Source: Dehalococcoidia bacterium (GTDB lineage Bacteria > Chloroflexota > Dehalococcoidia > DSTF01 > JACRBR01). Taken from it: a DNA stretch of 64,000 nucleotides. Shown here piece by piece: positions 2,938-12,764 of the stretch. The notes under the pieces are model-generated. The model made no database searches. It had not been told where the DNA came from and was given only the letters and a program-made list of their open reading frames with translations. A program made the position numbers and the translations under genes. The DNA lies in contig JAJTXQ010000046.1 of NCBI GenBank assembly GCA_021462855.1, forward strand, positions 1 to 64,000. Direction: 5' to 3'. How positions within the stretch are numbered: position 1 is the first letter of the stretch; the number at the start of each line of letters is the position of its first letter.

Positions 2938-4266
2938 GGTCCGCGCCCCGCCGGATGCCGTGACGGGTTGCACGTAGGGTTCGCTCGGCGCGGCCTCGCG
3001 GCCCGCGCGCCGCAGCGATGGCTGCGTCAGCGCGATCGCCGCCACGCCGGCCAGGCAGACCCATCCCATCAGCGGCATCACCAGCTCGAATGTCGCCCAC
3101 TGCGCCAGCGCGCCGACGGGCAGCGTCAGCACCTGCGAGATGCCCGCGCTCATCATGAACAGGCTCATCACCCGCCCCTGCATCTCGTTGTGCACCATGC
3201 GCTGCACGAGCGAGGTCGCCGCAACACCGCTGACGGCAAGCAGCCCGCCGAGCCCCAGGTTAATCACCGCGCTCAGCGGGATGATCCGCGAGTAGCCGAA
3301 GAGCACGACGCAGAGCGCGAACCCCGCCGCCGCGCCGATGAGCAGGTACCCCTTCCCGCGGAAATGACCGACGCTCGTCATCGCCAGCGACGCAACCATT
3401 GAACCGACGCCCCACGTCATCGCCAGCAGCCCGACGCCGGTCGGCGAGAGGCCGAGCACGCGGCTCGTCCACACCGGCCCGAGGTTGGCGACGACCGGCA
3501 GCCCGAAGCCGTGCACCGCGAACATCACGGTGATGATCGAAAGGATCGCCGGCCGCTCGCGCGCGTACGCCAGCCCGGACGCGATGTCGCCGAAGATCGA
3601 GCGTCGCCCGGCGGGCGCAGCGCGCTGCGGGCGATAACGCATCAGCGCGACGCTGGCGATGATCGCCGCATACGCGCCGAGCGTGAACACGTACGTCGAG
3701 CCGAAGCCGATGGCATCGATCAGCACGCCGGTCAGCGGCAGCCCGAGCGGAAAGCCGACCTGGAACGCCACGGCGTCAAGCGCGATCGCGTTCGGCAGGT
3801 CCTCGCGGCCGACGAGCTCCGGCACCATCGACAGGCGCGTCGGGCTGTCGATCGCGCCAAGCCCCGAGGCGACGAACACGAGCGCGATGAACAGGCCGAT
3901 CGTCAGCGTCTGACCGCCGGGCGTCGTGAACATGACGGCGGCGATGCACGCGCCGGTCAGCAGCCCCGCGCTCTGCGACACGATGAGCAGGCGCCGCCGG
4001 TCGAAGCGGTCGGCGAGGGCGCCGCCAAACAGGCCGAACGCCAGCATCGCCGCGCCGCGTGCGGCGCCGAGCAGCCCCGACAGCACGAGCCGCGAGTCCT
4101 CGTCCGTGTACTCGACGATGAACAGCACCTGCGTGACGAACTGCATCGGCACGAGCGCGCTTCCGAAGAGAATGCCCGCCCACAGCAGGCTGTAGTCCCG
4201 GTGGCGCAGCGCGCGGATGGGCGACCGGTGCGGCGCGGCAAGGCCGGGCGTGGGTTGCTCGGGCAT
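2920..4266 (-). CDS. MFS transporter, MFS_3/DHA3-like
   Basis: A 448-aa membrane protein with about 12 hydrophobic segments. It carries the MFS loop 2-3 signature as GGALADRFDRRRLL near residue 80. The short cytoplasmic N-terminus (PIRALRHRDYSLLWAG) is typical of the EntS / MFS_3 drug or metabolite efflux group. Substrate is unknown. It stands alone on the minus strand, tail-to-tail with the acyl-CoA dehydrogenase gene and overlapping its stop, so no separate terminator exists between them. A second protein of the same family lies at 17506-19008. Confidence 0.85.
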   Translation of the reverse strand: MPEQPTPGLAAPHRSPIRALRHRDYSLLWAGILFGSALVPMQFVTQVLFIVEYTDEDSRLVLSGLLGAARGAAMLAFGLFGGALADRFDRRRLLIVSQSAGLLTGACIAAVMFTTPGGQTLTIGLFIALVFVASGLGAIDSPTRLSMVPELVGREDLPNAIALDAVAFQVGFPLGLPLTGVLIDAIGFGSTYVFTLGAYAAIIASVALMRYRPQRAAPAGRRSIFGDIASGLAYARERPAILSIITVMFAVHGFGLPVVANLGPVWTSRVLGLSPTGVGLLAMTWGVGSMVASLAMTSVGHFRGKGYLLIGAAAGFALCVVLFGYSRIIPLSAVINLGLGGLLAVSGVAATSLVQRMVHNEMQGRVMSLFMMSAGISQVLTLPVGALAQWATFELVMPLMGWVCLAGVAAIALTQPSLRRAGREAAPSEPYVQPVTASGGARTSLSEQ

Positions 4267-9609: not shown

Positions 9610-10368
9610 ATGAACGAACTCCAGCACAAGGTCGCCGTCATCACGGGCGGCGCGTCGGGGATTGGCCGCGCGGCCGTCGAGTTGTTCGCCGCCGAGGGCG
9701 CCGCCGTCGTCTGCGCCGATGTGCAGGACGACGCGGGGCGCGCGCTCGCCGACACGCTGTCAAGTGGCGGCAAGTCGGTCGTCTACATCCACACCGACGT
9801 GTCGCGCACGGAGGATGTGCAGGCGATGATCCAGCTCGCCGTCAGCCGCTACGGCCGGCTTGACGTGCTGTTCAACAACGCCGGCATCGAGGGCGACCAG
9901 GCGACCACGCACGACGCATCGCTCGAGAACTGGGAGCGCGTCATCAACATCAACCTGCGCGGCGTGTTTCTCGGCATGAAGTACGGCATCGCCGCGATGC
10001 TGCAGCACGGCGGCGGGTCGATCATCAACAACGCCTCGGTGGCGGGCCTGATCGGCTTTCCCGCGATCCCGGCGTACTGCGCATCGAAGGGCGGCGTCGT
10101 GCAACTGACGAAGACCGCGGCGCTCGAGTACGCGACGCGGGGCATCCGCGTGAACTGCGTGTGCCCGGGCGTCATCGACACGCCGATGGTCGACCGCTTC
10201 ACGCACGGGCAGGCCGAGGCCAGCGCGGCGATGGCGGCGATGGAGCCGGTCGGGCGGATGGGCACATCGCTCGAGGTCGCGCAGCTCGCGCTATACCTCG
10301 CGTCCGACCGCGCATCGTTCGTGACGGGCGCGGCGATCCCGGTCGATGGCGGCTTCGTGGCGCGCTGA
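9610..10368 (+). CDS. Short-chain dehydrogenase/reductase
   Basis: A 252-aa classical SDR. The Rossmann motif TGGASGIG is at residues 12-19, NNAG at 89-92, and the catalytic residues are Asn114, Ser143, Tyr156 and Lys160 (YCASK). The C-terminus GAAIPVDGG is typical of FabG-like 3-oxoacyl reductases and related alcohol dehydrogenases. Asp37 after the second strand suggests NAD(H) preference. The start is supported by AGGAGGT 5 bases upstream. Substrate unknown. It runs head-on into the minus-strand redox locus, with only 8 bp between stop codons. Confidence 0.88.
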   Translation: MNELQHKVAVITGGASGIGRAAVELFAAEGAAVVCADVQDDAGRALADTLSSGGKSVVYIHTDVSRTEDVQAMIQLAVSRYGRLDVLFNNAGIEGDQATTHDASLENWERVININLRGVFLGMKYGIAAMLQHGGGSIINNASVAGLIGFPAIPAYCASKGGVVQLTKTAALEYATRGIRVNCVCPGVIDTPMVDRFTHGQAEASAAMAAMEPVGRMGTSLEVAQLALYLASDRASFVTGAAIPVDGGFVAR

Positions 10369-10376
10369 CCCCGCGA

Positions 10377-10874
10377 TCAGCCGCGGCGTGTGACCGTCCC
10401 CGTCATGGTGCCGGTGAACGCGCCGTCCCCCGTCGTGCGGAAGCGCGCGGTGACGTCGATCCGTGAGCCCGCCCATGCGCCGGCGCCGTCGCAGGTCAGG
10501 CTCATCCCGCTGTTGTCGAGCCGGGTGACCGTGCCGGTGCAGATCGTGGCAGCGGTGTCCACCGCCAGCAGGCGGACATCGTTGCGGACGATCCGCGTGC
10601 CACCGCGGTGCTCTTCGTATTCGTCGTCGCCGTCGCCGTCATCGTCGTGCTCATCTTCGTCGTCGCGGTCTTCGTGGTCGTCGTCGTCGCGGTCGTCGTC
10701 GTCGTCGCGGTCGTCGTCGTCATCGTCCCGATCCTCGGCCGCGTCATCGTCGTCGTCATCGTCGTCGAACTTCTCCGAGACGGCCGTCGTCGCCGCCACC
10801 TGCTGGACATCGATGATCAGCCGGATCGGTTGCTCACCGACGCCCTCGCCGGAGATGTGCAGCCGTGTGCTGCT
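10377..10874 (-). pseudogene. C-terminal part of the ferric-reductase-like gene beyond an in-frame TAG: poly-Asp linker and beta domain
   Basis: The frame of the upstream reductase gene (10875-11600) continues after its TAG for 165 more codons. It begins SSTRLHISGEGVGEQ, passes through about 50 residues that are nearly all Asp/Glu/Arg, and ends in a Ser/Thr/Gly-rich beta domain (LTCDGAGAWAGSRID) before TGA. The strand pattern before the TAG (EVAGTIRVTRG) and after it looks like one domain split in two. No good ribosome binding site or ATG starts the second part; the only nearby candidate is GTG at 10799. It is therefore a nonsense-interrupted gene, a read-through product, or a sequence error (CAG to TAG is one base). 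Confidence 0.6.
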
Positions 10875-11600
10875 CTAGCCGCGCGTGACACGGATGGTGC
10901 CCGCGACCTCGTTCGTGAACCGCCGGGCCGCCGGCGCATCGACCGTCGACGCCGAAGCCGTCGCGAGCGTCCGCGGCGAATCGCCCTTCACGGAGATGTA
11001 CGCGAGCATCGCCGCCACGAGCACCACCGTCACCCCGGCGGCCGCAACGCGCAGCTGCCGCCCCGGGCCGGCGGCTGGCAGCCGGCGCTGCAGGCGGTAC
11101 GCCAGCAGCGCAACCGTCCCGCCCACCGCGATGAAGTAGATCGCGTTTGCCCAGCCCTCGCCGGTATCGCTGCCGGCGGTGAGGCCGTGCAGCGTCGCGA
11201 GCGCGAACAGCGCGAACGTCGCGAAGTGCAGCGTGCGCCACGCGCGGTAGCCGAGCAAGCCCCGCGCGAAGAAGCTGCCGATGACAATCACCATCGCGTA
11301 GAACGCGAGTGAGCCCATCGCCACCTGCCAGCCGCGGTACGGTGACAGGAACGGCACCGTCAGCTGCCACACGTTGAAGCCGATGTACTGGTCGGCAAGC
11401 AGGACGTACGTGTGCAGCAGCGAGAAGCCGAGCGCCATCAGCGATACGAAGCGGTGCATGTCGAACATCGTGTTGCGGCGGATGAACCGCTCGGCGAGAC
11501 GCGTGTTCTGCAGTAGCCCCAGCGCCACCGAAGCGAAGATGAGCAGGTACGCGGTGAACCCCGCCGCGCGCGAGATGTACCAGAATTCGTGGTTCGTCAT
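10875..11600 (-). CDS. Ferric-reductase-like heme membrane protein
   Basis: A 241-aa protein of the ferric-reductase-like transmembrane domain family with about six helices. Two histidine pairs, His49/His63 and His125/His138, sit one turn-set apart on neighbouring helices, as expected for two b hemes in the membrane. The last hydrophobic segment (residues 185-202) is followed by an outside segment that ends abruptly at TAG 10875-10877, though the frame continues as a plausible domain. The gene starts inside the stop of apbE (ATGA overlap at 11597-11600). With ApbE next door, it probably passes electrons from quinol or cytoplasmic donors to a covalently flavinylated acceptor (inference). Confidence 0.82.
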   Translation of the reverse strand: MTNHEFWYISRAAGFTAYLLIFASVALGLLQNTRLAERFIRRNTMFDMHRFVSLMALGFSLLHTYVLLADQYIGFNVWQLTVPFLSPYRGWQVAMGSLAFYAMVIVIGSFFARGLLGYRAWRTLHFATFALFALATLHGLTAGSDTGEGWANAIYFIAVGGTVALLAYRLQRRLPAAGPGRQLRVAAAGVTVVLVAAMLAYISVKGDSPRTLATASASTVDAPAARRFTNEVAGTIRVTRG

Positions 11601-12520
11601 GCCAGGTACTCCTCCAGTCTCCCCAACAGCACCGTCGCGCCGTCGCGCGTGACGGCGATCCCCGCCGCGCCGTGCTGTTCGAGCGCCGCTGCGGCGCCGT
11701 CGAGCCCGAGCACGAACGCCGTCTTTGCCAGCACGTCGGCCTCGGTCGCGCTGGCGGCGACGACGGTCACCGTCAGCAGCCGGCCTTCCGCGCTCGTTCC
11801 GGTGCGCGGGTCGATGATGTGGTGCATCTCGCGCCCGCCGGCGGTCCAGCGCCGCCGCACGCGGCCCGACGTCGCGACGCCGCGGTCGCGCACGCTCAGC
11901 AGCGCGATGTCCTCGTCTGGCCGCGAAGGGTGCTGCACGCCGACCAGCCAGCCATCGCCATCAGGTCCGCCGCCCGACGCATAGATGTCGCCGGACGCGA
12001 CGACGAGCGCATCGGCGCCCGTGCCGAGTGCGCGCGCCGCGCGGTCGACGGTGAACCCCTTGCCGATCCCGCCGAGATCGATGCGCACGCCGCGCGGCAG
12101 CGTCACCTCGCGGCGAGACGCATCAAGCGAGATGCCGCGCCACGCACCGGCCAGCGGCGAGGCCGCGGGCGCCGCGCCGCGGGCCGTCACAGCGTCGAAC
12201 GTGCGGTCATAACCGGCGCGCTCGAGCGCGTCGAGCACGGTCGGGTCGAAGATGCCGTGTGTGCTGCGCGCCCACGCCGTCGCCTGGGTGACCGCGTCGT
12301 ACAGCAGCGGAGAGGCCACGAACGGCGCGCCGCCGGCGGCGTTGAGCCGGCACAGCTCGCTGTCCGGCGAGAACCGGCTCAGCGCGCGCTCGGCCTCGCC
12401 GAACATCGCCACAGCGCGATCGACGTCGCCGTCGCTGCCGCCGCGGATCTGGACGCTGGCGTAGCCGCCCATTGCGGGCCACGTGCGCTCCGCGACATCA
12501 GGATGCGTGAGTGCGTGCAC
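11597..12520 (-). CDS. apbE: FAD:protein FMN transferase ApbE
   Basis: A 307-aa ApbE-family enzyme, which attaches FMN from FAD to a Thr/Ser of partner flavoproteins using Mg2+. Visible motifs are the GGIGKGFTVD FAD-binding motif near residue 150, the ASGDIYASGG motif, and HHIIDPRTGT near 230. No lipobox is present, so this copy may be cytoplasmic, or the true start may differ (an internal ATG lies at 12472). It overlaps the upstream small gene by 23 bp and the downstream reductase by 4 bp, so the three form an operon. No FMN-binding-domain substrate protein is recognisable in the window. Confidence 0.9.
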   Translation of the reverse strand: MHALTHPDVAERTWPAMGGYASVQIRGGSDGDVDRAVAMFGEAERALSRFSPDSELCRLNAAGGAPFVASPLLYDAVTQATAWARSTHGIFDPTVLDALERAGYDRTFDAVTARGAAPAASPLAGAWRGISLDASRREVTLPRGVRIDLGGIGKGFTVDRAARALGTGADALVVASGDIYASGGGPDGDGWLVGVQHPSRPDEDIALLSVRDRGVATSGRVRRRWTAGGREMHHIIDPRTGTSAEGRLLTVTVVAASATEADVLAKTAFVLGLDGAAAALEQHGAAGIAVTRDGATVLLGRLEEYLA

Positions 12521-12764
12521 TCGGCACCCTCACGATCGAGTTCGCGGGCGCCCGGGATACGCCCCTGCCGTCATCGTCATCATCGTCGTCGTCGTCGTCG
12601 TCGTACTCGTACCGCTGCGCCGGCGCCGAAACAGGCGCCGCCGCGCCCGTCGCCTCCGGCTCGCCGGACGCGATGTCGCGCACAAGCGCCCACGTGCCGG
12701 TGAACGCCGCCACCGTCGCCAGCAGCACGGCGAGCTTCGCTGCGAAGTTCTGCTTGATCCGCAT
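12498..12764 (-). CDS. Small membrane protein with poly-Asp tract
   Basis: An 88-aa protein with a short basic N-terminus, one hydrophobic helix (residues 8-28) and an outside tail holding YEY followed by eleven Asp residues. The Asp codons form a GTC/ATC trinucleotide run on the plus strand (12572-12602), so length may vary by slippage. It opens the apbE-reductase operon, preceded by GGAGGGACACAG. The tail is likely extracytoplasmic and could bind cations. Function is unknown; a role in assembly or metal presentation for the reductase is speculation. Confidence 0.6.
   Translation of the reverse strand: MRIKQNFAAKLAVLLATVAAFTGTWALVRDIASGEPEATGAAAPVSAPAQRYEYDDDDDDDDDDDGRGVSRAPANSIVRVPSARTHAS

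Follow-up and report, generated by a model that had tools for sequence, protein, structure and literature searches.

The closest described systems to the locus considered here are the MsrQ-like flavinylation clusters, defined in the relevant passages of Meheust et al. (2021, PMC8238504) by a PF01794 gene occurring together with apbE; a gene for a flavin mononucleotide (FMN)-binding domain is typical of them without being part of that definition. This very combination is found in one operon of a 64,000-nucleotide stretch (the window) of a Dehalococcoidia bacterium (assembly GCA_021462855.1, contig JAJTXQ010000046.1, positions 1 to 64,000), where the PF01794 gene is split by an in-frame TAG. In-frame stops are widespread in bacteria at the population level and mostly short-lived (PMC7918605, in the part of that study used here). 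As in the cases treated there, a TAG stands in an otherwise coding frame at a site where relatives have sense codons; unlike them, since that part of the study centred on stops common to at least two species, it occurs in one genome only. The locus contains one gene with one stop, a coding continuation and intact relatives, and we consider a recent nonsense substitution in the lineage or in the assembled strain as the most economical account and a probable one. Below, the membrane module before the TAG is called the head and the C-terminal domain the tail, G000 is the window's own genome (76 contigs, 97.5% complete, 4.4% contamination), and other G and L numbers designate compared genomes and loci. 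The elements of the split gene are as follows.

10878 to 11600, minus strand: head, a membrane module of 241 codons with a Ferric_reduct domain (PF01794), six predicted helices and invariant His49, His63, His125 and His138, overlapping apbE by ATGA
10875 to 10877, minus strand: in-frame TAG, falling after the first predicted beta strand of the C-terminal domain and before the second; only the G000 match has an internal stop
10377 to 10874, minus strand: open continuation of 165 codons plus TGA, with strands 2 to 8 of the C-terminal barrel
10605 to 10769, minus strand: acidic run, tail residues 36-90, mostly Asp, Glu and Arg, in a loop predicted to join strands 3 and 4

The gene starts at an ATG (11600-11598), placed so that head start and apbE stop share the ATGA, and the frame described 165 codons beyond the TAG in an earlier, sequence-only reading was recovered at the same positions, ending with TGA at 10379-10377; its strand, which that reading did not give, is minus. 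The residues EVAGTIRVTRG precede the stop and SSTRLHISGEGVG follow it. Long antisense frames are numerous in this DNA, rich in guanine and cytosine (GC), so that an open frame alone would be weak evidence. Nevertheless, the continuation past the TAG is genuinely coding and no chance frame, because its codon composition, its codon score and its match to the profile of relatives all indicate so. The GC content by codon position was 0.62/0.60/0.91 in the tail without the acidic run and 0.64/0.50/0.93 in the head, and with six neighbouring genes as training set the codon score was +0.49 in the tail frame, the remaining frames lying between -1.29 and +0.03. Against a profile built from seven relatives only, leaving the window out, the tail scored 79.7 bits, inside the range of 60.9 to 149.8 bits obtained for those relatives by leave-one-out, and the part past the acidic run alone still scored 65.4 bits. 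Neither a second lesion nor decay of codon-position composition was seen after the TAG. In a simulation of neutral change at 0.1 substitutions per site, a new stop appeared in 47% of 200 runs and none in 53%; the stop is thus undatable in this way, since about 0.1 changes per site would often leave no new stop. A convergent short-chain dehydrogenase gene (9610-10368) has its stop 8 bases from the TGA of the tail, so that the long reading fills the intergenic space.

The relatives carry head and tail in one frame. The head query matched 14 of 60 genomes, the window's own included, and in the same-family genomes G005, G006 and G007 both parts form a single open frame (387, 347 and 347 residues, respectively), as they do in G041, from another family of the class (401 residues). 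Eight of 393 genomes of the class, again counting G000, matched the tail profile, among them G332 and G357 with head and tail in one frame; only the window's copy has an internal stop, which is accordingly present in just one of these eight tail-bearing genomes. At the level of the phylum the tail search matched three of 400 genomes, namely the window, G571, with a 393-residue fusion adjoining apbE (weak tail score, E = 6.4e-4), and G656 (E = 6.9e-4), which we dropped as a fusion, its 177-residue frame being a match to the acidic run with no ferric-reductase match. The same tail is also found on an RnfD-like protein (PF03116) of G001 (L059, 5601-7091), after apbE and an FMN_bind gene. The head query did not find the head gene in the same-family genomes G001, G003 and G004, and a contig scan of genomes with the head alone as query confirmed no relative. 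No convincing stand-alone tail gene was found among the searched genomes; a tail encoded separately from its own start, which would have spoken against the single split gene proposed from the sequence alone, was thus not encountered. In G002 (L060, 7221-8036), of the same family, the head gene stops just past the acidic stretch, the tail is undetectable and another frame begins soon after, a natural and independent loss of the barrel. The acidic run itself is similar in G005 and in the tail-less G002 and is absent in G006 and G007.

The AlphaFold2 model of the C-terminal domain has eight strands and, apart from the acidic loop, high confidence, with blocks of predicted local distance difference test (pLDDT) values of ~90 to 96. 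Strand 1 lies before the stop and strands 2 to 8 after it, in agreement with the earlier proposal that the residues on both sides belong to one beta-rich domain. In this model the TAG is situated in the first hairpin, so that a single strand of the eight would remain, and a cut at such a place, unlike one at a domain boundary, should destroy the domain. The residue aligned to the stop is Gln in G006, Glu in G007, Gly in G005, Ala in G001 and Arg in G041; the Gln considered for this site therefore does occur, in one relative, without being conserved. The stop site is a variable turn position and, because the aligned residue varies, nothing suggests a special amino acid. The second part also lacks a start signal, as had been noticed: the first in-frame start codon listed past the TAG is the GTG at 10799, upstream of which no Shine-Dalgarno-like sequence was seen by eye. 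We accordingly rejected an internal restart, which would moreover yield a barrel that lacks strand 1 and is not anchored in the membrane.

A recent nonsense substitution would cut an apbE-linked, MsrQ-like electron-transfer protein after strand 1 of its C-terminal domain, such that the six-helix heme-binding module would still be made, with loss of the extracytoplasmic barrel and of the acidic loop that it carries. Over evolutionary time the barrel is dispensable, as shown by its loss in the same-family relative G002. This account is supported by the intact single-frame relatives G005, G006, G007, G041, G332, G357 and G571, together with G001 on the RnfD-like protein. The restriction of the stop to one of eight tail-bearing genomes, the unconserved residue at its site, the continuation free of further lesions, the release factor and tRNA results given below, and the lack of the tail in G002 and of a detected head gene in G001, G003 and G004 also speak for it. 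We infer that the stop is recent and that the tail is lost rather than restored by suppression. Some points weigh against this account: G000 is the only member of its genus in the comparison set, leaving recency and fixation to rest on one genome, the predicted RNA fold after the TAG is unusually strong, as a read-through site might show, and a wrong base call or consensus would give an identical picture. Such an error in this metagenome-assembled genome, or several strains collapsed into one sequence, with a sense codon in the living population, would fit the contig number, completeness and contamination of the assembly, and a single base would account for everything in a gene that is otherwise faultless. 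However, none of the tested G000 domains had an internal stop (0/42 ABC_tran and 0/38 adh_short_C2, 0/80 together), which argues that errors of this kind are infrequent, and ~100 bases separate the TAG from the repetitive acidic stretch, a likelier place for an error and one that is itself in frame. We regard an artefact as rather unlikely.

With programmed read-through, one messenger RNA would yield a short product limited to the membrane module and, in smaller amount, a long one with the outer barrel. The preserved coding character of the tail agrees with it, and tail-less relatives of the membrane part make a short form plausible. In addition, the 81 nucleotides from the TAG had predicted fold z values of -3.05, -3.14 and -3.19 in separate runs (z about -3.1), with 14 of 1200 random 81-nucleotide stretches of the window reaching -3.14, and the lowest z of 172 stretches across apbE and the split gene overlaps the site. 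Yet two other stretches at the same site gave only -1.12 and -1.93, and the corresponding place in five relatives, which have no stop, shows no such fold (z of 0.83, -0.37, -0.34, -0.74 and -1.84). Chosen after the fact, the fold counts as weak evidence for read-through, which is also opposed by the position of the stop after strand 1 of 8 instead of at a domain boundary, by the presence of release factor 1, by the failure to find a CUA tRNA among 44 and by the occurrence of the stop in just one of eight tail-bearing genomes, where a programmed site would be expected to be conserved along with the downstream frame. Read-through seems quite improbable. A more elaborate version is still more so: regulation would yield mostly the bare heme module and a little of the long form, whose extracytoplasmic acidic-loop barrel would be an electron acceptor or a metal-binding head in an apbE-linked system without FMN_bind. 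Least credible is a complete protein ending at the TAG, followed by a separate gene or a chance frame; head-only relatives of the membrane module do exist, but the continuation matches the C-terminal domain of relatives in this frame, strand 1 precedes the stop and a credible start signal is lacking. Of the three causes between which the sequence-only reading had not decided (pseudogenisation, read-through or assembly error), a recent nonsense substitution is consequently the best supported, and read-through is little supported.

No genome-wide recoding of UAG takes place in G000, because release factor 1 is encoded, no CUA tRNA was found and the 80 domains contain no stop; we rejected this candidate on the first and last of these grounds. 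None of the 43 named among 44 transfer RNA (tRNA) matches had a CTA anticodon, one match being unresolved, and the set is incomplete (neither Ile-GAT nor Ala-TGC was seen), such that a missing contig could hide a CUA tRNA. Selenocysteine was rejected as well, the codon being TAG and not TGA, the selenocysteine codon, and so was pyrrolysine, given that no CTA tRNA was found among the 44 (pylS was not searched). Two of these matches deserve mention. One, the unresolved match, is a tRNA-like gene (L080, C3:3362-3435) whose anticodon as called by ARAGORN has four bases, 'ggct', with no amino acid assigned. The other is a tRNA-Arg with anticodon GCG (L034, C28:93323-93395) in a set of 44 that includes no ACG, a combination unusual in bacteria.

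The head was recognized, as had been proposed, as ferric-reductase-like by its match to PF01794 (30.2 bits for a cut-off of 28, E = 5.3e-07). Ferric_reduct domains have two pairs of conserved histidines that serve as heme ligands, and His49, His63, His125 and His138 are invariant in six of six aligned proteins, suggesting that the head binds heme. Arg is abundant in the loop past helix 1 and at the end of helix 5, and by this charge pattern we place the tail probably outside the cytoplasm, the helices being of low confidence in the model. Sequence searches of the PDB with the tail profile and with the head gave no match each, and NCBIfam offered no useful match to either part. The tail obtained no Pfam name in this analysis; its Pfam matches (DNA_pol_phi and others) lay on the acidic run, below cut-off, and were discarded as composition effects. 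Foldseek found no match at E ≤ 0.001 with the tail model (best E = 0.08) or with the full-length model and its low-confidence helices. The nearest solved folds, according to VIA-align, were PloI4 (7x86_B; Z = 11.1, root-mean-square deviation 3.4, 112 residues), AbyU, dirigent proteins, pyocyanin demethylase and allene oxide cyclases (AOC). PloI4, AbyU, dirigent proteins and allene oxide cyclase can be grouped as AOC/dirigent-type barrels. The tail resembles them in its predicted eight-stranded fold, Z = 11.1 to PloI4 being that of a predicted model, and differs in its 11% identity, its membrane anchor, its acidic loop and a conserved pair of cysteines (invariant in six of six aligned tails). 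A shared fold of this kind says nothing on function.

To find one in-frame stop in a metagenome assembly is common and ordinary, and the wider flavinylation setting is more interesting than the stop itself. Gene callers would miss the outer domain at the split gene. Upstream in the same operon lie two further genes.

11597 to 12520, minus strand: apbE (FAD:protein FMN transferase; FAD, flavin adenine dinucleotide), PF02424, 203.5 bits, E = 5.9e-60
12498 to 12764, minus strand: small protein of 88 residues with a single membrane segment, predicted by eye, and a run of 11 Asp

The PF02424 match bears out the apbE neighbour named from the sequence alone, and G000 has a second apbE gene (C33:18275-19078). 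The locus resembles the MsrQ-like clusters of PMC8238504, as described in the passages cited above, by its PF01794 membrane protein accompanied by apbE and by four invariant histidines that fit the two heme sites described; it differs from them in having an unnamed barrel as C-terminal domain and in the absence of any match to FMN_bind (PF04205) in G000. No match to NQR2_RnfD (PF03116) was obtained in G000 either. The RnfD/NqrB-like membrane subunit of G001 is similar in having the same tail domain beside apbE, whereas its membrane module is a different one (PF03116) and apbE is preceded in G001 by an FMN_bind gene. In six of the eight other genomes with a ferric-reductase or RnfD fusion apbE adjoins the fusion; it was not found in the flanks of ~1.5 kb examined for G332 and G357. 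This uncharacterised barrel thus occurs repeatedly, on membrane modules for electron transfer of two unrelated kinds and mostly beside apbE, which raises a testable question: what target ApbE flavinylates where two apbE genes coexist with no recognised FMN_bind or NqrB/RnfD acceptor. The motif D-x-x-[ST]-G-A-[ST], taken from PMC12052999, is absent from all three operon genes, and to name the barrel or the small protein ahead of apbE as flavin acceptor is a guess. In the open-access papers searched we found none joining ApbE or flavinylation with allene oxide cyclase, dirigent or ferric-reductase themes, and none of the ApbE matches listed named Dehalococcoidia or Chloroflexota. A small frame also precedes apbE in G005 (detected by BLAST, L061, about 3260-3410) and, by eye, in G006 and G002 (L062 and L060). 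The C-termini of these frames in G005, G006 and G002 contain TRT (THTRTHV, VDTRTSVS and DTRTRVS, respectively), and the small protein of the window, with its 11 consecutive Asp, ends in SARTHAS.
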